Assembly: GCA_001829875.1 (NCBI GenBank)
Contig: MICN01000062.1
Coordinates: 1-35,611, forward strand
Source: Syntrophus sp. GWC2_56_31
Lineage (GTDB): Bacteria > Desulfobacterota > Syntrophia > Syntrophales > UBA5619
Reading direction: 5' to 3'
DNA: 35,611 nt
Below, piece after piece: positions 11,664 to 25,687 of the stretch. Positions within the stretch are counted from its first letter, which is position 1. Each line of letters opens with the position of its first letter. The notes below the pieces were generated by a model. The model was not told where the DNA came from. It ran no database searches and was given only the letters and a program-made list of their open reading frames with translations. The position numbers and the translations under genes are program-made.

Positions 11664-12606
11664 CTACTCCGGAGTTCCCGGGTGGAATCTTCCCTCCGGC
11701 GGCCGGCCGCGTTTGCCGGCGGCCAGACGGATCGACCCCGTCGGACAGACCTCGATGCAGGTTCCGCAGGCGAAGCAGTCCGGAATCATCCTGTCCCGTT
11801 TCAGAATCGCCCCCATCACCGTCGATGGGCAGGCCTTTTCGCAGGAGCGACAACCGATGCATGTCTCGTGATTCACGACGATCCTGAACAGGCTGACTTT
11901 CTCTATGAGCCAGCCGACGAGTCCGAATGGGCAGAAGAACTGACACCAGGGACGGTAAACGAAGAGTGCGGCGATCAGAATAAGGCCGAGAAATATCCCC
12001 CCTCCGATGCCGATTGCCGCCGGTTTGTAGATCTTGAAGGGATCGATCTGCTCGATCAGATCGGTCGCCCAGACAAAGGCGGCCATGGTAAAGATCAAAA
12101 AAATGCGATCCGGATCGCATTGGTCCAGAGGAACGGCGGGCGGTATTGCCTCATGATTCCCCCCGTATCGCGGTGATTTCGATTCAGGCGGAAGATCAGG
12201 TCCTGGAGCGTTCCCGCCTGGCATCCCCAGGAGCAGATGAATTTATTGGCGAGAAAGACCAGCAGAAGGAAAATCATCAAGGCGATCATCCGGGGCGGGA
12301 AGATGACCCCCTTGGCGCCGAAAAGGACAATGGCATCCTTGATCGTTCCCATGGGGCCGGGATCCGATCCGAGGATGACCCCGAAGAGTACAGCGGCGGC
12401 GAGATAGAGCCTCCTGCGCAGGCCAGGGGTGATCTTTCTGCGGCGCATCAGCACAAAGACGCCGACAAGAAAGAGAACCCACAGGCCGAACTTCAGAGGG
12501 ATCTTCACCCAGTTTTTCGATTCGTATTCCGCTTCCAGCGTCCAGCCAGTTCGATCCAGTCGTGGCGCACCACCCGGTTTTTCTCCGTTATAATCCGTTC
12601 AGACAT
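11664..12606 (-). pseudogene. NapH/YccM-like 4Fe-4S membrane protein, frameshifted
   Basis: This is a polytopic membrane protein with CxxxC on a cytoplasmic loop (FICSWGCQAGTLQDLIF) and a second copy of it (YRPWCQFFCPFGLVGW). A 2[4Fe-4S] tail follows (CIGCRSCEKACP, CFACGTCIEVCP). It is broken into frames. The gene should start at ATG 12606 (strong GGAGGAGG site, MSERIITEKNRVVRHDWIEL). That frame stops after 34 codons, and the protein continues in another frame from about 12545. A second break lies at a run of seven A (12097-12103, T on the coding strand), where FLWTNAIRIAFF ends and LIFTMAAFVWATD continues in another frame. Such proteins hand quinol electrons to periplasmic or cytosolic Fe-S partners. 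Real decay or sequencing error are both possible. Confidence 0.7.
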
Positions 12607-12609
12607 GGT

Positions 12610-13449
12610 CTATTCCTCCTCCTTGCCGTAGAGATGCCCCCCGATCATTTTCGCAAGCGTTTCGGCCTTCGCAAGGATCTCCTTCCGGGGGCCGATCGAC
12701 ATCGCCTTCCGGGGGCAGGCCTCGATGCAGGCCGGCGTCTTGTTCTCATTCAGCAGATCGTTGCAGAGGTCGCATTTGTACATGACGCCGTTTCCCACCA
12801 GGGTCGGGAGGACCTTGAGATAAACCCCGACGCCCGACTGGCGCTGGGGGATCTCCCAGGGGCAAACCGTCTTGCACTTGGCGCCGCCGAAACAGGCCTC
12901 CTGATCGATGACAACGGCCCCGTTCTCAAACTTGTGGTTCGCGGCGAACGGGCAGAGAGTCGCGCAGGCGGGATTGTCGCAGTGCATGCACCTTCTCGGA
13001 ATGAATACGGTCTTCTTCTGTCCTTCGACATCGGCCTCCGCCTTCTGGACGAAGATCAGGTTATAGGGAGTCAGGCGGTTGAAAACCCCCTTCTTGCTTT
13101 TGCCGCAGCCGGGGCTCAATGCCCGTCGGCAGCGCGGACACCGGATCGGTTTTTCCGCCTTCATCGAAACATAACCGCCTTCGATCTTCAGGATCTTCCC
13201 GTTGACGAGGACATCGGCGACCTTCCGGTGCGCCGCCTCGATGATCCTGCCGAACGTCTGCCGCGAAATGTTCATCCGGGAGGCCGCCTGCTCTTGGTAC
13301 AACCCTTCGAGGTCGGCCAGGCGGATTGCCTCGTGTTCGTCGAGGGTTAAAAGCACGACTCCGCAAGATGAAGGCGTCGCCCCCTCCGGCTGGAAACACG
13401 TCTTCCCCGGCATGGCGCCGATCTGTCGGCAGCACTTCGGTCTCGGCAT
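12610..13449 (-). CDS. DUF134 DNA-binding domain fused to a HybA-like ferredoxin
   Basis: This is a 279-residue fusion. Residues 1-105 are a DUF134 domain: MPRPKCCRQIG start, LTLDEHEAIRLADLEGLYQE, and a helix-turn-helix QEQAASRMNISRQTFGRI. From about residue 110 there is a CPRC zinc or metal pair, then an HybA/DmsB-type 4Fe-4S electron carrier with Cys groups CMHCDNPACATLCP, CFGGAKCKTVCP, CDLCNDLLNENKTPACIEACP. The ATG at 13449 has GGAGGGTGATT before it. It precedes the NapH-like gene by four bases, so the pair likely forms one electron-transfer unit. A DNA-binding head on a ferredoxin suggests a redox-sensing regulator. Confidence 0.85.
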   Translation of the reverse strand: MPRPKCCRQIGAMPGKTCFQPEGATPSSCGVVLLTLDEHEAIRLADLEGLYQEQAASRMNISRQTFGRIIEAAHRKVADVLVNGKILKIEGGYVSMKAEKPIRCPRCRRALSPGCGKSKKGVFNRLTPYNLIFVQKAEADVEGQKKTVFIPRRCMHCDNPACATLCPFAANHKFENGAVVIDQEACFGGAKCKTVCPWEIPQRQSGVGVYLKVLPTLVGNGVMYKCDLCNDLLNENKTPACIEACPRKAMSIGPRKEILAKAETLAKMIGGHLYGKEEE

Positions 13450-13470
13450 AATCACCCTCCACATCAGGTT

Positions 13471-13666: not shown

Positions 13667-15280
13667 TCATGATCGCCAAGATGGTTCGTCTCCGAATCGA
13701 ATCATAGGTTTCTTCATATCGACCATGGCATTGACGATCAACTCGACCAGGCCGCCGTAATAGAGACGGCTGCGCTCCTCCGCATGATAGTAGTTGATGA
13801 TGTCCCGGATGGCGCCTTTGCAGTTCGAGCAGGGGGCGCAGACATATTTAGGTGCCTCCCGGGGTTCCCCTTCGAAGGCATTGAGGATCTGCAGGAACTT
13901 CTTGCGCGAGCCGACCAGATTTCTCCATTGTGCAAAATTGTATCCCGACATGATGGCAAAACCCGAACCGCCGCCGCAGCAGTAATTCTCCACCCCATGG
14001 GGCGTCATTTCCCGGAATCCCGGGGCGATCTTTCTGAGGATGCGCCTTTGAGGTTCCACGATTCCCATGGACCGTACCATGTTGCAGGGATCGTGCAGTG
14101 TTACGGGAAAATCGTTCCTGAGGGGATCAAACTGCAATTTTCCGCTCCGGACGATCTCCTCAAGCGTGACCATGGCCGATTCGCGCGGGAGATTGAGATC
14201 TCCCGTCAACAGCCGGTCGGCGATGACGGTCAACGCTTTATGCGCATGACCGCATTCGCCCATGACGATTTTTTTAACCTTCAGCCTTCGGGCGATGTCG
14301 GCATGCCTGACGGCGACGCGGGAAAATTGCACATCATCATACCATAACCCGTAGTTTACGGCATCGTAACCAACGGCCTCCGAGGACAAGGTCCAGGAAA
14401 GTCCGGCCGCTTGAAAAATGGTAGCAAAGGCTCCGACATTTTCCGGCCAGGCGAGCATCTCGCCTGCATTGTGGATCAGCAGGATATCCGCGCCTTCCAC
14501 GTCCCAGGGGATCTCGACTTTATAACCCGTGATCTCTTCCATCTCTTCCTGGATGAATTCGACGCTGTCCTTCGCGGCAAGGGGGTTCATGCCGGTAGAA
14601 GAGCCGACCCGCAGATGCTGAACCGTTCCTTTATCGTGGAGCTCCTTGGGGGCGATGCCCATTTCCTGAGAGAAGAGCTTGCGGATTTCGTGCGTGATGA
14701 GCCCATTGTCCACGCCGATGGGGCAGACCGTGGCGCATCGCCGGCAGAGCGTACAGCGATAGGACAGCTCGGCAAGACGGGCGATCGTCGTCCAGTTCAG
14801 ATCGATATCGCCGGTCAGTTTGGCGGTGATTTTTCCACCCGGCTTGAGATATTTTTTATAAATCCGCCGCAGGACCTCGGCCCGGAACATGGGTCGGTAG
14901 ATATCCTTCCGTCCGCTCATTTCATAGACGGGGCAGGCATTGGAACAGGTCTGGCATTTGGCGCAGTGTTCCATCGAAAGCATCAGGGGCTGAAGAAAGG
15001 TCCAGTTGTTTTCCTTTTCAAAGAGCTTTTTCAAGCCGGATAGAAACCGGAGAACCAACGCTTCCTCCTCTTCCTTGTTCGCAGGCTTGGGGATGCCGAT
15101 CGCAATCGTGTCGTCCAGCGAGGTTTCCAGGTGCTTGACCTTTTCCGGGTTCAGGGGGGGAATGGTCACCTGATTGAAATCCTCATAGGGTGCAGGCAAA
15201 GGCGAAAGTTCGCCCGGTTCGATGTGACACAAACAGTCGGACGGTTTGGACAGGTTGGATGGCTTCATTTGGTTGTTCAT
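13667..15280 (-). CDS. HdrD/DsrK-like Fe-S subunit of a membrane redox complex
   Basis: This is a 537-residue cytosolic protein of the HdrD/DsrK/TmcB family. It has two 4Fe-4S motifs (CAKCQTCSNACPVYE at about 107-121 and CTLCRRCATVCPIG at about 176-189) and two CCG domains (ECGHAHKAL, HDPCNMVRS; YCCGGGSGF, CAPCSNCKGA), which hold the noncubane 4Fe-4S centre for disulfide chemistry. It overlaps the NarI-like gene as ATGA, so the pair forms one complex that would exchange electrons between menaquinone and a thiol/disulfide carrier such as DsrC. DsrK, TmcB or a related paralogue cannot be told apart here. Real dsrM is at the left edge, so this is an additional module. Confidence 0.88.
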   Translation of the reverse strand: MNNQMKPSNLSKPSDCLCHIEPGELSPLPAPYEDFNQVTIPPLNPEKVKHLETSLDDTIAIGIPKPANKEEEEALVLRFLSGLKKLFEKENNWTFLQPLMLSMEHCAKCQTCSNACPVYEMSGRKDIYRPMFRAEVLRRIYKKYLKPGGKITAKLTGDIDLNWTTIARLAELSYRCTLCRRCATVCPIGVDNGLITHEIRKLFSQEMGIAPKELHDKGTVQHLRVGSSTGMNPLAAKDSVEFIQEEMEEITGYKVEIPWDVEGADILLIHNAGEMLAWPENVGAFATIFQAAGLSWTLSSEAVGYDAVNYGLWYDDVQFSRVAVRHADIARRLKVKKIVMGECGHAHKALTVIADRLLTGDLNLPRESAMVTLEEIVRSGKLQFDPLRNDFPVTLHDPCNMVRSMGIVEPQRRILRKIAPGFREMTPHGVENYCCGGGSGFAIMSGYNFAQWRNLVGSRKKFLQILNAFEGEPREAPKYVCAPCSNCKGAIRDIINYYHAEERSRLYYGGLVELIVNAMVDMKKPMIRFGDEPSWRS

Positions 15281-16218
15281 TTCTCCTTGGGTGCTGAAGA
15301 TGCGATGTCACGCCAGGATTTTCGTCCGTCCGCATCAACGTGATTTGCCCTCCAGGTCGGTTTCAGTTCCAGGTTCTCCATGATGGCGGCTTCGATCCTC
15401 CCGCCCCGGCGGTTCTGGGCGTCGTCCCATTTTACCTTGTGATAAAGGAAATATTTCATGAACATATGAGACATATGGGTCAGGGGGATATAGGCTGCCA
15501 GAAGCGAAGCCGACACGATGGCCACCCCGCCGGCGATGCTTTGACCCGGTGCGTAGCCGTTCAGTGGAAGTCCTCCCGTCAGCAGGCCGAACGCATAGGC
15601 CTTTGCGCCCACCAGAAGCGGATCGGTGAACACAGCGGCGGCAAGGGCGGAAACGAAAAAAAGGAAGATGAATAGAATATTGAAATAATCGGAGAAAGAC
15701 GAGTAATTTCGGAGTTCCGGTTCGGTCCACCGTTTGGAGAGAAGCCCCAGGCTGCCGATATTTCCCAGGACCAGACCGGTCCATCCCGTAACAACAATAA
15801 GCCCGTCCAGAAGGGACTTGATGGTGCCGCCGGGGGCAGCGGGGTAATCGCTCCCCAGAATGACAAGGGCGTGAACAACCAGTAAGCCGGAGGTGGCGAT
15901 CATCAGGTAAAGTCCGAAATGAAAGGGGAAGGAGATCCGCCAAAGGCTCCTGTTTTCTTTCCACAACCCCCTGATGAACAGAATTTCCGGCAGCATGTAG
16001 CGAAGCTCATTGAACAGCGATCGTTTGTGGGTCTTTTCCCACCAGTTCACCTCCTCCAGATAGGAGCCGCCGTAAGCCGCCCTGGCGGCCGTTTCGTGCT
16101 GAACAGGGTAGAGTTCCCAGCGGACATGAATGGGAAGGGTGATTTGCCGGTAGATGCGATAGGCGGTCGCAAGGATGAACACAAAAATGCACAGATAAGA
16201 CAATAGATAAAATCCCAT
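15277..16218 (-). CDS. NarI/DsrM-like membrane cytochrome b subunit
   Basis: This is a 313-residue membrane protein with about six helices, a large N-terminal soluble loop and His residues placed like haem b ligands (FPFHFGLYLMI at about 98-108, PLTHMSHMFMKYFLYHK at about 248-264). It is the menaquinol-side partner of the HdrD-like protein encoded by the overlapping next gene. The C-terminal tail (LKPTWRANHVDADGRKSWRD) resembles those of HdrE-type subunits. The ATG at 16218 opens the first membrane helix directly. It follows the stand-alone receiver gene by 13 bases in the same operon. Confidence 0.85.
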   Translation of the reverse strand: MGFYLLSYLCIFVFILATAYRIYRQITLPIHVRWELYPVQHETAARAAYGGSYLEEVNWWEKTHKRSLFNELRYMLPEILFIRGLWKENRSLWRISFPFHFGLYLMIATSGLLVVHALVILGSDYPAAPGGTIKSLLDGLIVVTGWTGLVLGNIGSLGLLSKRWTEPELRNYSSFSDYFNILFIFLFFVSALAAAVFTDPLLVGAKAYAFGLLTGGLPLNGYAPGQSIAGGVAIVSASLLAAYIPLTHMSHMFMKYFLYHKVKWDDAQNRRGGRIEAAIMENLELKPTWRANHVDADGRKSWRDIASSAPKEK

Positions 16219-16231
16219 AAAAAACGTTGCC

Positions 16232-16612
16232 TTATTTGATGAGCGAATGGACGAGGTTCATGATCTCTTCCTGGTTGATAGGCTTGGAAACAAACCCCTC
16301 CGGGGCCGGTACCTGATGGCGGGACGAGATGAATTTTTTAAAGTCCTCGGAGACCCCGGTGACAATAATGATCGGGATATGTTTCCACCGGTCGTCCGTT
16401 TTCATCTCGCGAAAAAACCTGATCCCGGATTTCTCAGGCATGGAGATATCCAGCGTAATCAGATCCGGAGGTCCTGCCTGCACCTTTTGCATCGCCTCCT
16501 CGCCATCCTTTGCCTGCAGGGTTTCGTACCCTTGATCTCCAAGCAATGTGGAAAGGTAGGTCCGAATATCCGGCTCGTCATCCACGATCAAAATCCGTTT
16601 CGGGTTGGGCAT
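16232..16612 (-). CDS. Stand-alone response regulator receiver
   Basis: This is a 126-residue single-domain receiver with no output domain. The acidic pair is in ILIVDDEPD, the phosphorylation Asp in LITLDISMPE, and the conserved Thr and Lys in VTG and SKPINQ. Between helix 4 and strand 5 it carries an unusual insert, SSRHQVPAPEGFVSKP. The same kind of insert is found in the receiver fused to the HdrD at 18084-19832, so the two are paralogues. The ATG at 16612 was chosen for AAGGAGG upstream. It follows the kinase gene by 14 bases and is its probable partner. With no DNA-binding domain, its output must be protein-protein. Confidence 0.9.
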   Translation of the reverse strand: MPNPKRILIVDDEPDIRTYLSTLLGDQGYETLQAKDGEEAMQKVQAGPPDLITLDISMPEKSGIRFFREMKTDDRWKHIPIIIVTGVSEDFKKFISSRHQVPAPEGFVSKPINQEEIMNLVHSLIK

Positions 16613-16626
16613 AAATCCCTCCTTGA

Positions 16627-18063
16627 TCAAACGTTGGGTGCTTTTGTCCCTGTAGTCGGAGGTTTCCGCGGAAGTTTTACGATCATGCGGGTCCCTTTAT
16701 TCAGTTCCGACTCTATTTTTATTTCCCCGCCATGGGCCTGGGCGATTTTATTGGAGATAAAAAGACCAAGTCCCGTTCCGCTTCCTCTTTTCGAAGAGAA
16801 AAAGAGGGTAAAGGCGCGTTCTCGGGTTTCCTGATCCATCCCGATGCCGTTGTCTTCCACTTCAAATTCGATGTACTCCGGATAGCCCTTCAAGCCAATT
16901 CGCACCTGATGGGCGTTTTTCTTCTTGTCCACCCGGCAGGCATCGATGGCGTTTTCAACGAGGTTGACCAGCAGGGACCGGATCGCTTTGGAATCGGCCT
17001 CGAAATCTCCAGGATTTCGGTCAATTTCCCAACGGAAGTCGATTCCTATTTCCGCTGCTTTGCCCCGCATCACTTCACAGACCTCTTCCGCCACCGCAAG
17101 AGCCGGAATCCTTTCCAAGTCCGGCACCCGGTCCTTGGCGTAATAGAGCAGGTCCAGCACCATCCGCCGAATCCGGGTAATATTCCGCTCCACCATCTTC
17201 CAACCTTGTTCGAAGCGCGCCCGATCGTTTTTCGCCAGTCCCGTATTGACCAGGTACACCCCGCCGTCGAGACTCGTCAGGAGCCCCTTGATTCCATGGG
17301 AGATGGAGCTAATGATCAACCCAAGAGAGGTAAGCTGTGATTGGAGCTGGCGAATCTGGGTGATGTTGGTGCCCATCTCGATGACGTTCTTGATCTGCCC
17401 TTCCGCATTGCGCACGGGGGCCGTATACACCAGAACGTTAACGTGGTCCCCTTTTTGGGAAGTCATCACTTCCTCGGACTGGTGGATCTGGCCGTCTCCA
17501 AAAGTTTGCTTCACAATGCAGGGAACGCACGGCTCCGTCCGGTGCATGTACGTTTGATGACATTTTGCCCCCGGCAAAGCCCCGAAATCTTCCCGGAGCC
17601 GCCGATTCGCTTCCACGATCCTTAGGTCGGAATCCTGAATCGAAATGTAACAGGGCACTTCTTCAAAAAGTTGGCGGTATCGTTCCCGGCTGTCCCGAAT
17701 TTGATTCTGCAGGAGTTTGATTTCGGTGATGTCCGTTGCCATTTTCATGACGTGGATTATTTCACCGGCTTCGTTGGTAATTGCTGTGGTGTATATGAGC
17801 AGGAAGATTTCATTTCCCAAGTGGTTGATGAATTTCTCTTCAATCCCGTGAGGTAACCCATCCCGGAAGGTGCGCTCCGCCGGACAGTGCTCGCAGCGCT
17901 CCGACCGGTGCTGATTGATCTGAAAGCAGTACCGCCCCTCACAATCTCCAAAGTCTTGGCGAAAGCGCTCGTTCGCCTCGACGATCCGAAGATCCCGATC
18001 CAGGATCGTCAGGTAGGCCGGCATCATTTCGAAGTAGTTTTTATAGGGATTATCGATCATCAA
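16627..18063 (-). CDS. Double-PAS histidine kinase with Cys-rich PAS domains
   Basis: This is a 478-residue soluble sensor kinase. It has two PAS domains (about 8-125 and 133-245), each with the same added Cys set: CEGRYCFQINQHRSERCEHC in the first, and the positions AKCHQTYMHRTEPCVPC in the second. This would suit an Fe-S cluster, haem or thiol switch. The H-box lies in SSISHGIKGLLTSLDGG at about 258-274. The N box (NLVENAIDA), G1 (VEDNGIGM) and G2 (GSGTGLGL) are intact. There is no membrane segment. It sits between the HdrD-receiver fusion and the lone receiver, so both receivers are candidate partners. The likely role is sensing the redox state of the neighbouring complexes. Confidence 0.9.
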   Translation of the reverse strand: MMIDNPYKNYFEMMPAYLTILDRDLRIVEANERFRQDFGDCEGRYCFQINQHRSERCEHCPAERTFRDGLPHGIEEKFINHLGNEIFLLIYTTAITNEAGEIIHVMKMATDITEIKLLQNQIRDSRERYRQLFEEVPCYISIQDSDLRIVEANRRLREDFGALPGAKCHQTYMHRTEPCVPCIVKQTFGDGQIHQSEEVMTSQKGDHVNVLVYTAPVRNAEGQIKNVIEMGTNITQIRQLQSQLTSLGLIISSISHGIKGLLTSLDGGVYLVNTGLAKNDRARFEQGWKMVERNITRIRRMVLDLLYYAKDRVPDLERIPALAVAEEVCEVMRGKAAEIGIDFRWEIDRNPGDFEADSKAIRSLLVNLVENAIDACRVDKKKNAHQVRIGLKGYPEYIEFEVEDNGIGMDQETRERAFTLFFSSKRGSGTGLGLFISNKIAQAHGGEIKIESELNKGTRMIVKLPRKPPTTGTKAPNV

Positions 18064-18083: not shown

Positions 18084-19832
18084 TTACGCGTTCCCATGGG
18101 GATGTTTCAGCTCGAGAATCATCCGAACACTGGTCAACAGGGTATCTTCGTTGACCGGTTTATCCAAGTACCCTTCCGGCGGAGCGACGGGACGCTCGTA
18201 AATGAGGCGTCGCAACTCCGGCTTTCCCGTAATGATGCAGACTCTTGTGGAGGTGATCTCCGGATTGTTCCGGATCTCCTCGAATACGTACCCGCCGTTT
18301 CTCCCCGGCATTGACAGGTCGAGCGTCACCAGGTCGGGTTTTTCCCGGACCGTCAATGCCAGCGCCTGCTCGCCATCGACTGCCTGAATCACCGTAGCCC
18401 CCTGATCTTCCAAAACCGCGGCCAGGAAGGTCAGGATATCCGGCTCATCGTCCACCACCAGGATCTTGAATCCCGCCAGCGGCAGGGCGACCGCCGGGAT
18501 CGGCACTTCCACCGGAACGACCACCTTTTCCGGGATCATCATGGCATTGGCGGCCAGGTTGACCAGTTGGGTCACCTTCATGCCCAATTTGTAATGCCTG
18601 ATCACGTCGCTTAAACCGTCCACGCAATTGTGGCAGGAAGTGACCACCGTTTTGGCCTCCGTGGCCGTGAGTTGATCCGCCTTGATTTTGGCCGATTTCA
18701 GGCGCTGGGGGGTATATTCCGACATGGACATCGCCCCGCCCCCACCGGTGCAGCAAAAATTCTCCGCACAGTTCGGATACATCTCCCGAAAATCGGGCAC
18801 CAGGAGGTTCAACAGTTCCCGTGGTTCCTCATAGAACCCGCAGCTTCGGGCATTGTTGCAGGAATCGTGGAAGGTCACTACCTCCTTGTTTTTTGTTTTA
18901 TCCACCCGTATCCAGCCTTCTTTGATGTAACGGAGCATCGTCAGAACCGAGCTTTCGATCACAAAGGGCACCGCCTTTCCCGACCAGTTCGGCCCTTCAC
19001 ACCGGGTAGAGCGGTATCCGTGCCCGCATTCGGATAATACCAGTTTTTTACCCCGCAGTTTGATCACTCTGTCGTAGACCCGTTGAGCCACTGCCGCACC
19101 CAGCTCATCGTCACCCGAGAAGAGACCGAAATTGGTCATGTCCCATCCTTCGCTGGGCATGGTCCAATTCTCTCCGGCAATGTAGAAAATGCGGGCCGCA
19201 TCGGAAATCGTCCGGGGGTCGTATTTCACCTCCCGGGGATTGATCGCATAAACGATTTCGGCATCCATCTTATCGATGGGAATCCGGGCTGCGGGATCTT
19301 TGAATTCGTTCTCCAATTCGTCGGACAGCCATTCGAGGGTCTCCAGGTAGTCCTGGGGCAGAACCCCCATCTGGTTTCCCACTTCCCATTGGTCTTTGCT
19401 GACGATAGCCACGCCCTCCGGCATGATTCCGACGGAAACGAGCGCCCCCCGGGCCATTCGGTTGAGCGTGGCAAAATCAACCCCCATAGGACAATTCAAG
19501 GAACATCTTCGACAGTTGGTACATTTCCCGAAAACGATATCCTTCAGTTTTTCCAGGTCCGCATCGGTGCGGATGTCCTCGGCATGAACCCACCAGGGGA
19601 AAATCCTCCCCGTCCAGTCAAAGTTGCGCTTGAAAATCTTCCGAATCTGATCCGCCTTATGAGCCGGTGCATAGGTCGGATCGTCGGGGTTGGCAAGGAC
19701 GTAATGACATGAATCCGTGCACATGCCGCAATGAACGCAGCCAACCAGAGAACCCACCATCTGGCGGGTTAGCTTCCTGCCCATTCTCTCAACAACCTTG
19801 TCCGCTTTACGGGATCTTGCGTTTTGGGCCAT
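18084..19832 (-). CDS. HdrD/DsrK-like protein fused to a response-regulator receiver
   Basis: This is a 582-residue fusion. Residues 1-430 form an HdrD-like protein with 4Fe-4S motifs CVHCGMCTDSC and CTNCRRCSLNCPMG, and CCG groups ECGHGYRS, HDSCNNARSCG, FCCTGGGG and SCHNCVDG. After a Pro/Val linker a complete receiver follows at about 455-582, with VVDDEPD, phospho-Asp near 505 in TLDLSMPG, ITGK, and the DKP lysine. The ATG at 19832 is favoured over 19856 because AGGAG lies six bases before it. The partner NarI-like gene is directly upstream and the sensor kinase directly downstream. The receiver could gate electron flow or complex assembly by phosphorylation. This is an unusual architecture; the sequence shows one uninterrupted frame. 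Confidence 0.9.
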   Translation of the reverse strand: MAQNARSRKADKVVERMGRKLTRQMVGSLVGCVHCGMCTDSCHYVLANPDDPTYAPAHKADQIRKIFKRNFDWTGRIFPWWVHAEDIRTDADLEKLKDIVFGKCTNCRRCSLNCPMGVDFATLNRMARGALVSVGIMPEGVAIVSKDQWEVGNQMGVLPQDYLETLEWLSDELENEFKDPAARIPIDKMDAEIVYAINPREVKYDPRTISDAARIFYIAGENWTMPSEGWDMTNFGLFSGDDELGAAVAQRVYDRVIKLRGKKLVLSECGHGYRSTRCEGPNWSGKAVPFVIESSVLTMLRYIKEGWIRVDKTKNKEVVTFHDSCNNARSCGFYEEPRELLNLLVPDFREMYPNCAENFCCTGGGGAMSMSEYTPQRLKSAKIKADQLTATEAKTVVTSCHNCVDGLSDVIRHYKLGMKVTQLVNLAANAMMIPEKVVVPVEVPIPAVALPLAGFKILVVDDEPDILTFLAAVLEDQGATVIQAVDGEQALALTVREKPDLVTLDLSMPGRNGGYVFEEIRNNPEITSTRVCIITGKPELRRLIYERPVAPPEGYLDKPVNEDTLLTSVRMILELKHPHGNA

Positions 19833-19860
19833 CCGTGACTCCTGAATCAATTTCATTCTT

Positions 19861-20553
19861 TCATCTGTTGGTCGGTTTCGGCTGAGTAACCCGCTTCAGA
19901 GGATACACGCCGCGGTAACCCATGGTCCTCCCGAAATAGAAGCGGGTAAACGGATAATAGAGATAGTGGGAGATCTTACTGAAGGGTACATAGACCAAAA
20001 AGAAGGCGGTCATGATGAAATAGACCATCAACAGGCCTTCCCCCAGATCCGGGCGGTTCGGGGCTGCAAAGATGGAAACGAAACTCCAAACCGTCAGCAG
20101 GGCCAGGGAAAAATAGTCGTCCGGAGTACTGATCAGCCGCATCGCCGGATTACTGAGACGGCGGAACATTCGGTAGCAACCGATAGCGCATGCCGCTGCA
20201 AACAGGATCTGGAGAAGGCGGACAACGATCATGGGTCTAATCAGACCGGGTGCATACGGAATGACAATAGACATGCCGATATTGGCCGCCATAGTGAGAT
20301 GGAAGACCACGAATTGAATATAGAAAAAAGACATGCGGCGGGTGCTCTCCATGGACCAGGGCATGGCAATATTCGCCCAGGAATAGACAATCCCCTTGAA
20401 CGAAGAGGCATCCCTGTTTTCGGAAGGCGCCTGCCGATCCCGGGATGCTTTGAATTTCAACAGCCAACGGATACGCAAAATATAGACAAGAGCCATGAAG
20501 CTCATGGCCATCAACTGCAAATCATCGGAAACAAAACGAAGGGATTCGCTCAT
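19861..20553 (-). CDS. NarI/HdrE-like membrane cytochrome b subunit
   Basis: This is a 230-residue membrane protein with about five helices. His residues sit in FVVFHLTMAANIG (about 92) and in the closing PFSKISHYLYYPFTRFYFG, where NarI/HdrE/TmcC proteins bind haem b. It is shorter than the paralogue at 15277-16218 and lacks its long soluble loop. It starts one base after the macro-domain gene stop, with GAGAGGATAGG before the ATG, and precedes the HdrD-receiver fusion. It is the likely quinol-oxidising or quinone-reducing half of that complex. Confidence 0.83.
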   Translation of the reverse strand: MSESLRFVSDDLQLMAMSFMALVYILRIRWLLKFKASRDRQAPSENRDASSFKGIVYSWANIAMPWSMESTRRMSFFYIQFVVFHLTMAANIGMSIVIPYAPGLIRPMIVVRLLQILFAAACAIGCYRMFRRLSNPAMRLISTPDDYFSLALLTVWSFVSIFAAPNRPDLGEGLLMVYFIMTAFFLVYVPFSKISHYLYYPFTRFYFGRTMGYRGVYPLKRVTQPKPTNR

Positions 20554-20554
20554 C

Positions 20555-21091
20555 CTATCCTCTCATCTTCTGCAGATGTTCTTGGAAAACGTTCAATTCC
20601 CGGGAGTCGCGAAGGCAGAAAACAACCTCCTCAAGTTCGGCCGCTTTTTCCAAGAACTCCCTAACGGCGCCCATGGTGACGCGGGCGCAGACCTCCAGCG
20701 GAATCCCATAGAATCCCGCTCCCATGGCCGGAAAGGCGATTCTCCGCAGTTTATACTCTTCCGCCTTCCGGAGAGCGTTCAGCATGGTTTTCCTCAGTTT
20801 TTCCTCGCTATCCTCTTCCTGGAACCGGGGACCGACAGCGTGCAGGATGTACCGGGCTTTAAGGTTTTCCCCGCTGGTGGCGACGACATCGGTAACGTTG
20901 GCGCTGCCGAACTTTTTCAACGCCTCCTGTACTTTTGGCCCCCCCTGGGTGGAAATCGCCGTGCCGAATCCGGCTCCCAGTGTTAAATCCGGCCGGGCGT
21001 AATATGCGATCCCATCCATATTCTCTATGTCGGTGATGAATCCGACCATCAAGCGGATTATCTTCTCATTAACCCTTAATTCATTCGACAT
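20555..21091 (-). CDS. Macro-domain protein
   Basis: This is a 178-residue single macro domain (ADP-ribose or O-acetyl-ADP-ribose binding and hydrolysis). It begins with IRLMVGFITDIENMDGIAYY, where most family members have NADITxxxxDAIVN, and has the glycine-rich GAGFGTAISTQGG and the loop FPAMGAGFYGIPLEVCARV near 120-138. The usual adenosine-binding Asp appears as the D in FITDIENMD. The ATG at 21091 is preferred; the longer frame to 21157 adds a basic, unlikely leader. It lies between dsrC and the NarI-HdrD-receiver module on one strand, suggesting a link between the redox module and NAD-derived signals. Confidence 0.8.
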   Translation of the reverse strand: MSNELRVNEKIIRLMVGFITDIENMDGIAYYARPDLTLGAGFGTAISTQGGPKVQEALKKFGSANVTDVVATSGENLKARYILHAVGPRFQEEDSEEKLRKTMLNALRKAEEYKLRRIAFPAMGAGFYGIPLEVCARVTMGAVREFLEKAAELEEVVFCLRDSRELNVFQEHLQKMRG

Positions 21092-21259
21092 ACGCAAACT
21101 TTCTTTTTGCATCAATGAATCGCATGACCGCGAATGACAAGGATCACGGTCCCTCAATCCCGATCCCCTCTCGGTTACATTTCATTATGAGTCCAAGGGA
21201 TAGGATGTTTCCTTAAGTTTCCGGTTCCCCTGGTAGTATGACCGCGGACTTATAAAGGC

Positions 21260-21332: not shown

Positions 21333-21653
21333 TTAGACGCAGCCCGTCGGTTTCGCAAGGCCCGCGAGCTTGCACGCCCCCTTGGCCGGCCCCGTGGGGA
21401 AGAGCTCGTAGAGTTTCTTCATATCGACGCCGCAATCCTTGCAGATCTTGCGGATCATGGGTGCGATACCGAACTGCTGATAATAGTTGCGCAGATAGTT
21501 GATCAGCTTCCAGTGCTCCTCCGTCAACTGTCCTTCGATATCCTCCGCGCTTGCGTAGGCCTGGGCGAATTCTTCGCTCCACTTGTCCAGTTCCTGAAGG
21601 AATCCGTCTTCATCCACTTCGTACGTTTTGCCTGCCAATTCGATGATGGGCAT
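21333..21653 (-). CDS. dsrC: DsrC, sulfur carrier of dissimilatory sulfite reduction
   Basis: This is a complete 106-residue DsrC/TusE-family protein. The C-terminal arm CKLAGLAKPTGCV carries both functional cysteines, C94 and C105, eleven residues apart as in true DsrC, with the last Cys penultimate. DsrAB loads sulfite sulfur onto this arm as a trisulfide, which the membrane DsrMKJOP complex then reduces. Typical features EVDEDGFLQELDKWSEEFAQ and LTEEHWKLINYLRNYYQQFG are present. A GGAG site precedes the ATG. It lies 54 bases after dsrN in a dsrA-B-D-N-C run; in many sulfate reducers dsrC is elsewhere in the genome. Confidence 0.95.
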   Translation of the reverse strand: MPIIELAGKTYEVDEDGFLQELDKWSEEFAQAYASAEDIEGQLTEEHWKLINYLRNYYQQFGIAPMIRKICKDCGVDMKKLYELFPTGPAKGACKLAGLAKPTGCV

Positions 21654-23136: not shown

Positions 23137-23361
23137 TCATTCCTTGGGAAAGAATTCCGCTAGCATGAGGTAGGTTGAACTGCCGCTCGACCAGTACCTG
23201 AGCACCTCATCATCGAGCAGCTCCTTGACGACGGTCTGTATCGCTTGCCGGTCCTCATCGGGGAACCACCGGACGACCTCCCTGATATAAAACATCTTCT
23301 TGTCGCCCATCGATTTCTGGCGGAATCCGTCCAGGACTTTCGCTTTCAAGTCATCGCTCAT
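23137..23361 (-). CDS. dsrD: DsrD, winged-helix activator of DsrAB
   Basis: This is a 74-residue DsrD (MSDDLKAKVLDGFRQKSMGD, then a winged-helix body KKMFYIREVVRWFPDEDRQA). DsrD raises the sulfite-reducing activity of DsrAB, and its presence marks a reductive rather than oxidative Dsr pathway. The ATG at 23361 with GGAG seven bases upstream is favoured. The alternative ATG at 23373 adds MELA and overlaps the end of dsrB. Confidence 0.93.
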   Translation of the reverse strand: MSDDLKAKVLDGFRQKSMGDKKMFYIREVVRWFPDEDRQAIQTVVKELLDDEVLRYWSSGSSTYLMLAEFFPKE

Positions 23362-23363
23362 GG

Positions 23364-24425
23364 CTAACTCCATTTGAACAGCGTCGATGAATGGAAGGAT
23401 TCCGTAGCCATATCGAAATCATCGATGTGCTTGTCCGTGAACGGGATGCCGGTCAGGGAGAAGAACCGTTCCCATCCGACCCGTTCGATCCATTCCCCGA
23501 CCCGTTCATGCTTCCTGGCGTGGCTGGCGTAGACCTCGATGATGTTCTTCACGGCATCGACGACTTCCGGCCAGCGCGGCGGGTTGTTCGGGAGGAAGGG
23601 GATCGCCAGTTTGGAAAACGAGGGTGCGCTGCGGGCGTTCGAGACCTTTCCCCCCACCCAGATGGAGATCCCATCGTTGTCGGGGTCGGCGAGGGGCATG
23701 GCCGGGCAGACGGTGTAACAGTTGCCGCAGTACATGCATTTCTCGTCGTTTACAGTGACGGTCTTGTTTTTCATATCCCCGCGAATGGCGCCCGTGGGGC
23801 AGGAGGCCACCGTGCTCGGTATTTCGCAGACGTTCGGAACACGCGTGTTGTCCACCTTGGGAACCGTCCGATGGATGCCGAGGATCGCGATGTCCGAGCA
23901 GTGGACGGCGCCGCACATATTCAGGCAGCAAGCCAGGGCGATCCGCACATGGTTGGGAAGTTTCATCGTGGTGAAATAGTCGTAGATCTCGTCCATCAGC
24001 GCCTTGACCGGCCCGGAGGCGTCCGTCGCCGGCGTATGGCAGTGCACCCATCCCTGGGTGTGGACGACATTCGAGATGGCGTGTCCCGTACCGCCGACGG
24101 GGTAGCCCTTGCTTTCGAGTTCGGCCAGCAGCGGGGCCACCTTGTCCTTGTCGGCCAGGAGAAACTCGATGTTGTGGCGGCTCGTGAAGCGCAGGTAGCC
24201 GTCGCAGTACTTTTCGGCGATCGCGCAGATCTCCCGGATATGATCGGTCGACACGAGGCGCGGCGAACCGGCGCGGACCGAATAGAGCTTCTCGCCCGAA
24301 TCCGCCGTGTGCACCAGGACGCCCGGTTGGGGGATTTCATGATAGCGCCATTTCCCGTAATTGCGGGCAATCACAGGGGGCAACATGGTTTTGTAATCGG
24401 GGGGGCCGATATCCGTCTTTGCCAT
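23364..24425 (-). CDS. dsrB: Dissimilatory sulfite reductase beta subunit
   Basis: This is a 353-residue DsrB, which carries the catalytic siroheme-[4Fe-4S] of the cytosolic DsrAB heterotetramer and reduces sulfite. The cofactor Cys cluster [14 protein letters not shown] lies at about 165-178. Basic sulfite-site residues fall in [10 protein letters not shown]. The ferredoxin domain [12 protein letters not shown] lies at 230-241. It starts one base after the dsrA stop and is followed directly by dsrD. It is slightly shorter than most DsrB proteins (about 380) but shows no gap in core motifs. Confidence 0.97.
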
Positions 24426-24426
24426 G

Positions 24427-25617
24427 TTACTTCACCTCCTTTTTGATATCTTCGGGCCAGAAGAAGACGTAGGGGTTTGTCCTCGGGGCCTTGACCATTT
24501 GCGGTACCGCGGGCAATCCCACCGCACGCAGGAAAACCCTCATCCCCAGACGCTTGATGAGCTCGCCGAGCCTCTCCCGCGATTTGCCGTATTCGTCCCA
24601 CCAGTCCTGGATCCGGAGGATCAGGTCTTTCAGCTCCTCATAGGGCGGCTCCAGCTTCATGAACGGTACGATGACCCAGGAAAGGAGAGCCCCCTGCAAA
24701 ATCGGCGCTTTGCCGCCGATAAGGATGGTAGCGCCCCTCTCTCCACCTTGCCGCAGTGCCTTCGACATCAGATTGATGCAGTGCATGCACCGGGTACAGT
24801 CCCCGTTGTCGATTTTCAGTCTTTTCCCGTCCCACTCCATGCACTTCGTGGGGCAGAGATCACAGACCTCCTTCTGGATATCGAGTCCGGATGCGGCGTA
24901 TGCTTCCACCTCTCCCTGGTCGATGCGGATATCCCCTTTCCAGGTGCCGATGACGGCAAAATCCGCGCGGGCGATGGAGGCGACACAGTCGTTCGGGCAG
25001 CCCGAAACCTTGATCTTGAATTTATACGGGAACATCGGGCGGTGCATCTTGTCCTGGTAAGTCATGGTGATGTCGTAACAGATATCGAGAGAGTCGACAC
25101 AGGCCCATTCGCACCGTCCCGGTCCCACGCAGGCGCTCGGAGTCCGCAGTGCGGAACCGGAGCCGCCGAGGTCGTAGCCGGCTTCTGTAAGATCGTCGAA
25201 ACAGGGCTGGATGTGATCTGTCGTTGTTCCCAAAAGGATGGCATCCCCGGTGGAGCCGTGCATGTTGGTCAGACCGCTGCCGTGCTTGTCCCAGACATCG
25301 CAAAGACGGCGGAGCGCATCGGTCTTATAGAACCAACCCGTGGGGTGGTTGACGCGCATCGTGTGGAAGGCCTGAACATTTGGGAACAGGTCGGGACGGT
25401 CCGAGTAGCGCCCGATCACGCCGGAACCGTAACCTTTGACACCGACAATGCCGCCGTGTTTCCAGTGACCGATCTTGTCTTTGTAGGAGAGCTCCAACTG
25501 TCCCAGCAGATCCTCCGCCATGGGATTTTTTTCGGCCGCCTCCTTCATGTCCTTGACGAAACTCGGCCATTTCCCCCTTTCCAGTTGATCCAGAAGGGGC
25601 GTCTCTCTCTTTGCCAT
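24427..25617 (-). CDS. dsrA: Dissimilatory sulfite reductase alpha subunit
   Basis: This is a 396-residue DsrA. Siroheme/Fe-S Cys are in [11 protein letters not shown] (163-173) and CPNDCVAS (207-214). [13 protein letters not shown] (113-125) is the usual highly conserved segment. The ferredoxin domain has CDLCPTKC and CTRCMHC (252-280). It is about 40 residues shorter than Desulfovibrio DsrA: the loop near residue 30-40, the insert before the ferredoxin domain and the C-terminal tail are reduced. The start [13 protein letters not shown] has a perfect AAGGAGGT site; the longer frame from 25659 would begin inside the promoter/operator. It heads dsrA-B-D-N-C and is controlled by the element at 25645-25687. 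Confidence 0.97.
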
Positions 25618-25644
25618 AAACCGTACCTCCTTATAGGATGAATT

Positions 25645-25687
25645 CAAACGTATAGACATGTATAGCAGAGGGTTTGTATTATAGCAA
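25645..25687 (-). promoter_or_regulatory. dsrA promoter with GntR/HutC-type operator
   Basis: On the minus strand TTGCTA (25682-25687), a 17-base spacer, then TATACA (25659-25664) form a -35/-10 pair. The -10 is part of TATACATGTCTATAC, which contains GTCTATAC (25650-25657), a fit to GT-N-TA-N-AC. Seen from the plus strand there are two GTATAG copies ten bases apart (25650 and 25660). A 24-base block (25645-25668) recurs exactly, inverted, at 29484-29507, and its core also stands before the cytochrome gene. An alternative -10, TATAAT, lies at 25678-25683. A repressor here would block dsrA transcription. Confidence 0.75.

Follow-up and report, generated by a model that had tools for sequence, protein, structure and literature searches.

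An iron-sulfur electron-transfer subunit fused to a response-regulator receiver, and its probable partner kinase, in a dsr gene neighbourhood

What might a response-regulator receiver do at the end of an iron-sulfur electron-transfer protein? The question arises from a minus-strand gene (18084..19832) in a window of 35,611 nt, the whole stretch of DNA analysed here, which comes from a fragmented draft genome (136 contigs) of a sulfate/sulfite-reducing bacterium. The gene encodes an electron-transfer subunit with two [4Fe-4S] sites and a CCG domain, followed by a C-terminal receiver. Receivers on enzymes are already known (CheB, and GGDEF, EAL and HD-GYP proteins), and the usual view of how sulfate and sulfite respiration are controlled is one of transcription, or of DsrD acting allosterically on DsrAB. 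A full-text literature search, reaching mainly papers outside subscription journals, turned up no account of the fusion. Two papers, on Dsr evolution and on acidobacterial dsr clusters, discuss DsrMK paralogues with no mention of a response regulator, and the main text of a survey of response-regulator targets in D. vulgaris does not mention the Tmc genes.

The original prediction gave no strand. The fused protein occupies a single uninterrupted open frame (19856..18084, minus strand, 590 aa), and the plus strand across the 18084-19832 interval contains many stops. The longer frame starts at ATG 19856. A Shine-Dalgarno sequence (CAGGAG) stands in front of ATG 19832, close relatives have a stop just ahead of the equivalent of this ATG, and homologue alignments begin at residue 8. 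Because of the CAGGAG and the stop in relatives, the start at 19832 (582 aa) is the preferred gene model, which upholds the start and the phospho-acceptor D505 of the original prediction; residue numbers used here are those of the 590-aa frame, in which D505 is D513. Pfam matches on the protein are Fer4_8 (residues 39-126, 3.4e-10), CCG (327-411, 6.5e-10) and Response_reg (465-577, 3.8e-19), the last nearly full-length (profile positions 1-110 of 111). A predicted structural model, made from an alignment of 32 sequences, has a mean pLDDT of 85.8 and a confident core.

A scan of one genome per species gave 80 related loci. Core and receiver share one uninterrupted frame in 72 sequences (about 68 distinct loci), a count that takes in the window and copies from related genomes, with a few duplicated via two collections. 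According to MAG taxonomy as deposited, the fused loci span over a dozen phyla, including Zixibacteria, Acidobacteriota, Myxococcota, Thermodesulfobacteriota, Calditrichota, Planctomycetota and Gemmatimonadota, as well as Electryoneota, LCP-89, Ignavibacteriota, Bacteroidota, Poribacteria, Hydrogenedentota and others. The fragmented state of the source draft might suggest that an assembly or binning error has fused two genes. However, about 68 distinct loci, drawn from many projects and phyla, show this open fusion, which makes a false join at the linker untenable, and two of the fused MAGs (L056 and L073) were deposited as whole chromosomes, so that we consider this explanation to have practically no chance of being correct. 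The fusion of CCG iron-sulfur subunit and receiver is real and evolutionarily conserved.

In a tree of receivers, the fused ones form one group with 2 label changes, the lone intruder (L103) being a copy split by a frame break. Thus, the fusion most likely arose once. In the core tree, unfused orthologues are placed both within and beside the fused group, a pattern that later receiver losses would fit, with the direction of change lying beyond what the tree can prove. Among 50 cassette genomes, many of them drafts, 43 encode a dsrA above the curated cut-off (37 of the 41 fused, 6 of the 9 unfused). The fused form is present in 9 genomes of a phylum sample numbering 297, and dsrA in 8 of those 9 versus 144 of all 297. 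On these counts, the module accompanies dissimilatory sulfite reduction and is carried by a small share of the dsrA-bearing genomes.

Residues 1-441 form the core, which belongs to the DsrK/TmcB/HmcF/HdrD superfamily and combines two [4Fe-4S] sites with a CCG domain. The [4Fe-4S] motifs are C40xxC43xxC46xxxC50 together with C112xxC115xxC118xxxC122 (19491..19739, minus strand; Pfam Fer4_8), and all eight of their cysteines are invariant among homologues. The CCG motif of the non-cubane [4Fe-4S] type, C333-x34-C368C369-x38-C408xxC411 (18624..18860, minus strand), is likewise invariant at its five cysteines in the 72 fused and 17 unfused homologues. The protein thereby has both features of the CCG superfamily, two CxxCxxCxxxC sites and Cx31-39CCx35-38CxxC. 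Among NCBIfam models, the top score is for HmcF (NF045711; 326.8 bits over 427 residues, cut-off 750), followed by TmcB (NF045724; 297.7 bits, cut-off 735; relatives' cores 304-321) and DsrK (NF045796; 231.6 bits, cut-off 400), and the cores of relatives behave like the query against these models. Judged by these scores, the core is nearest to TmcB/HmcF, yet under every curated cut-off. The HdrD/DsrK-like label of the original prediction thus stands for the superfamily and fails for canonical DsrK or HdrD, an identity that the NCBIfam scores rule out. The true DsrK of the source genome is on another contig (C111, 743 bits), and the window has a second DsrM/DsrK-like pair downstream of the fusion. 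Together with the sub-cut-off scores, these indicate that the fusion belongs to a third, distinct superfamily module in the genome, closer by sequence to Tmc/Hmc than to DsrK/HdrD. Since a canonical DsrK exists elsewhere in the genome, the fusion module is not by default the main DsrC-trisulfide reductase. The closest solved structure for the core is mycobacterial EtfD (PDB 9ojn; Foldseek 1.0e-13, phmmer 2.1e-12).

Core and receiver are joined by an Ala/Val/Glu/Pro-rich linker (residues 445-463; 18468..18524, minus strand), which agrees with the Pro/Val linker described originally. Its pLDDT falls below 50 at residues 445-456, a disordered stretch in the predicted model, and its length among homologues ranges from 11 to 56 residues with a composition rich in A, V, E and P, variation as expected for what is probably a flexible tether. 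The receiver (residues 464-582; 18111..18467, minus strand) has a complete (beta-alpha)5 fold, as indicated by the Response_reg match, the predicted model and PDB matches. The phospho-acceptor D513 (codon 18318..18320, minus strand) is an Asp in 72 of 72 fused homologues. Wherever homologues have sequence at the position (71-72 of 72), they keep the acid pair D469/D470, D513 and K566; residue 543 is a T in 61 and an S in 11. The domain therefore has the fold, acid pair, phospho-acceptor Asp, T/S and Lys that characterise response regulators, and a decayed receiver is ruled out by the retention of all active-site residues. With the single frame, the Pfam matches and the conserved cluster ligands, these residues bear out the claim that one chain combines a two-cluster plus CCG iron-sulfur protein with a receiver. 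Pfam identifies no DNA-binding domain on either the fused receiver or the lone receiver encoded nearby. The fused receiver has diverged more quickly than the core (62% vs 76% median identity), which, together with the variable linker, means that a fixed core-receiver interface is not implied.

In nearly all loci, across phyla, the fusion is part of a cassette with the order macro-domain protein, TmcC-like anchor, fusion, histidine kinase and lone receiver. In the window and in Syntrophaceae relatives, this cassette is placed after dsrAB, cbiA and dsrC. All genes of the window described here are on the minus strand. The dsrA-dsrB block (23137..25659; TIGR02064/TIGR02066 over cut-off) includes a small ORF where dsrD would be expected (23137-23373; 78 aa, 71% to a relative's copy), and dsrC (21333..21653; TIGR03342 2.8e-34) encodes a protein with C-terminal cysteines, a type proposed as the substrate. 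The constant first gene of the cassette encodes a macro-domain protein (20555..21157; Pfam Macro 1.1e-25; 75 homologous copies), which probably starts at M23 (21091). In this protein YYAR stands in place of the usual NAAN, and GAGFGTAI in place of the GGGVD loop, so it may keep binding rather than hydrolysis. The 230-aa anchor (19861..20553), a proposed quinone/haem b partner, has 5 hydrophobic helices and invariant H85 and H196, scores 52 bits for TmcC (cut-off 240) and 51 bits for HmcE (cut-off 275), and is equally conserved in loci with and without the fused receiver. The kinase (16627..18063) and a DVU0259-like single-domain response regulator (16232..16630; identified by Pfam, NCBIfam and homologues) directly follow the fusion, as had been noted, and do so on the same strand, with spacings of 20 bp and -4 bp. 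This lone receiver is nearly always retained (68 copies).

The second DsrMK module (13667..16218; Pfam, NCBIfam) consists of a DsrM-like/NarI protein (15277-16218) and a DsrK-like protein (13667-15280). DVU0259-like lone receivers adjoin a second DsrM2-DsrK2 pair in five other loci (L042, L068, L074, L078 and L080), which suggests a wider link between receivers and DsrMK modules. Further along the window, one chain (12610-13464) combines DUF134, putatively DNA-binding, with a Fer4_11-type 4Fe-4S ferredoxin domain, and a polyferredoxin-type membrane protein (Fer4_5 plus Fer4; 11664-12508) is split over overlapping frames (12095-12508 and 11664-12224) by a frameshift that either exists in the organism or belongs to the draft sequence. 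Unfused Nitrospirota loci and some others have DsrC/TusE-like genes adjoining the core or the macro gene (L097 and L101, about 9.3-9.4 kb; L056, 6.0 kb; L094), a hint that the partner of the module is a DsrC-type protein. In other phyla, genes for Rrf2, Cys-rich MerR-like and MerR regulators are found upstream of the macro gene (18, 15 and 9 loci, respectively; for instance L075, L083 and L051). With such regulators at the head of the operon, transcriptional control would come from elsewhere than the receiver, consistent with the receiver acting post-translationally.

Split versions of the module also exist. In three loci of the same phylum (L120-L122), the TmcC-like protein, core, receiver and kinase are encoded by four consecutive genes, with cores 44-45% identical to the query. 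In a sister clade with unfused cores of about 61% identity (L014, L118), the core is followed by genes for universal-stress-like, HEAT-repeat and DVU0259-like receiver proteins. In Desulfococcus multivorans, response regulator, histidine kinase and universal-stress genes flank the Tmc/Hmc genes, resembling D. vulgaris (PMC5109826). Given these split operons and the D. multivorans loci, a two-component module beside Tmc-like complexes is already known as a gene neighbourhood. The new element is the physical fusion of the receiver into the catalytic subunit.

Which kinase would act on the fused receiver? The neighbouring kinase has two PAS domains, an H-box histidine (H256, conserved in 62 of 62 homologues), N371, D404, the G-boxes and HATPase_c (3.1e-25), and no transmembrane segment. 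Each PAS domain contains C-x10-C-x2-C (C46/C57/C60 and C168/C179/C182), conserved in 60-62 of 62 homologues and found also in the kinases of the split versions; these cysteines could form an Fe-S, haem or zinc redox sensor. From them and the missing transmembrane segment we infer a cytoplasmic redox- or metal-dependent sensor. The kinase adjoins the core in 67 of 69 scorable fused cases and in 0 of 15 unfused orthologues. L071 and L114, the two fused cases that deviate, are very close copies and have a histidine kinase nearby on the opposite strand. An earlier count of kinase against fusion, covering only loci from genome contigs, gave a Fisher p of 6e-9. The rows in these counts are not independent, with 2 comparable pairs on supported branches and 6 on all branches, and a phylogeny-corrected test of co-loss, having 2 to 6 independent pairs, has too few for significance; the scored ones are in the expected direction.

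Distance matrices were compared over the 40 loci with all parts, the signal shared with core, anchor and macro protein being removed by partial correlation. The fused receiver correlates with the kinase at 0.64-0.71 (0.66 with the DHp domain, 0.71 with the catalytic domain) and with the core of its own chain at 0.39. Values are near zero between the lone receiver and the kinase DHp domain (0.06), the anchor and the DHp domain (0.04), and the fused receiver and the anchor (0.07). In rank versions, minus divergent rows or minus the Syntrophaceae group, the order is kept at smaller values (receiver-kinase 0.34-0.58). Co-evolution with the kinase is thus stronger for the fused receiver than for the lone one, and it also exceeds that between the fused receiver and its own core. 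This disfavours the lone receiver as the main partner of the kinase. On this evidence, we consider it very probable that the adjacent kinase pairs with the fused receiver.

With moderate confidence, we propose that the kinase phosphorylates the fused receiver and that the receiver would then directly control electron transfer. The fused protein would serve as the catalytic, cytoplasmic component of a third DsrMK/Tmc-like quinone-linked module, with the receiver as its on-board allosteric switch. Core and TmcC-like anchor would connect the menaquinone pool with a thiol/disulfide partner in the cytoplasm, carrying electrons between the two; that partner is most likely DsrC or a protein like it, a guess from neighbourhood and superfamily. 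The soluble kinase with its two Cys-containing PAS domains may sense the cytoplasmic redox state and, as linkage and co-evolution suggest, phosphorylate D513. Phosphorylation could then shift the contact of the receiver with core or anchor and turn the electron flux up or down. The lone receiver would probably be a second acceptor of the same kinase, serving as a phosphate sink or a link to other outputs. Overall, a two-component system would control respiration post-translationally.

In the main rival reading, information would flow in reverse, with the iron-sulfur core acting as the sensor whose redox or substrate state alters phosphate gain or loss at the receiver, and with the kinase and the lone receiver, then the true output, reporting the state of the respiratory chain to other proteins. 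The near-constant retention of the lone receiver would suit this, as would the C-terminal position of the fused receiver on a flexible linker and the response regulator kept in the operon of the unfused sister clade. Yet the supposed output co-evolves with the kinase far less than the fused receiver does, and the core retains every catalytic cluster ligand, as an enzyme would; we regard reverse flow as unlikely. A further reading makes the receiver a phosphorylation-controlled docking or dimerisation module that brings the soluble subunit onto the anchor or into a supercomplex, with no allosteric effect on catalysis. Soluble subunits of this superfamily have to be bound to a partner in the membrane, versions with a separate receiver exist, and the linker is long and variable; against this, the anchor is equally conserved with and without the receiver and does not co-evolve with it, so that docking seems to us a rather poor prospect. 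Fusion of neighbouring genes can also be neutral, and close unfused orthologues live without the receiver, as would be expected if it were a passive phosphate sink or a by-product that leaves the core unaffected. This is highly improbable given that the active-site residues are kept in essentially all copies across phyla and that the kinase is co-retained and co-evolving.

Allosteric control of the enzyme by its own receiver is thus the reading that we favour. The recurrence of the fusion in many phyla suggests that respiration is tuned by enzyme phosphorylation, beyond gene expression only. If true, a receiver inside a quinone-linked electron carrier would let a signal act directly on respiratory flux, in organisms with a central part in the sulfur cycle of sediments and wetlands. 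A redox oxidoreductase would join the enzymatic outputs of response regulators, with a named candidate kinase-substrate pair. More tentatively, and slightly more likely wrong than right, the fusion may represent a widespread, undescribed class of two-component output, in which phosphorylation switches an iron-sulfur respiratory electron-transfer enzyme. Enzyme, redox-sensing Cys-PAS kinase, lone receiver and ADP-ribose-type macro-domain protein would then make up a self-contained module through which many uncultured phyla exert feedback on their sulfite/sulfate respiration.

Compared with known systems, each component has relatives. EtfD carries its membrane domain within the same chain. In both fold and sequence this ETF:menaquinone oxidoreductase is nearest to the core, and it lacks a receiver. 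DsrK of DsrMKJOP belongs to the same superfamily and the fused gene is likewise in a dsrABC neighbourhood, with a score far below the DsrK cut-off. HmcF and HmcE (NF045711, NF045716) of the Hmc complex give the best core score and the second-best anchor score, whereas here the receiver is fused; HmcA, HmcB, HmcC and HmcD were not recognised among the neighbours of the fused gene. TmcB and TmcC (NF045724, NF045723) of the Tmc complex represent the same type of two-[4Fe-4S] plus CCG subunit and the same type of small membrane anchor. In contrast to Tmc, the receiver is fused and the cassette has a macro-domain gene, and the tetrahaem cytochrome TmcA was not found among the recognised neighbours in the window and the recurrent neighbours of related loci, using general rather than TmcA-specific models. 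The DVU0259 single-domain response regulators (NF045717) are the best named family for the fused receiver as well as for the lone one (75.5 and 110.6, respectively, cut-off 160); this model of 117 positions covers a receiver only, whereas here the receiver is fused to an enzyme. Given the separate-gene versions in Tmc-like operons, the complex itself may be the target of the orphan receivers encoded next to Tmc/Hmc in cultivated sulfate reducers.
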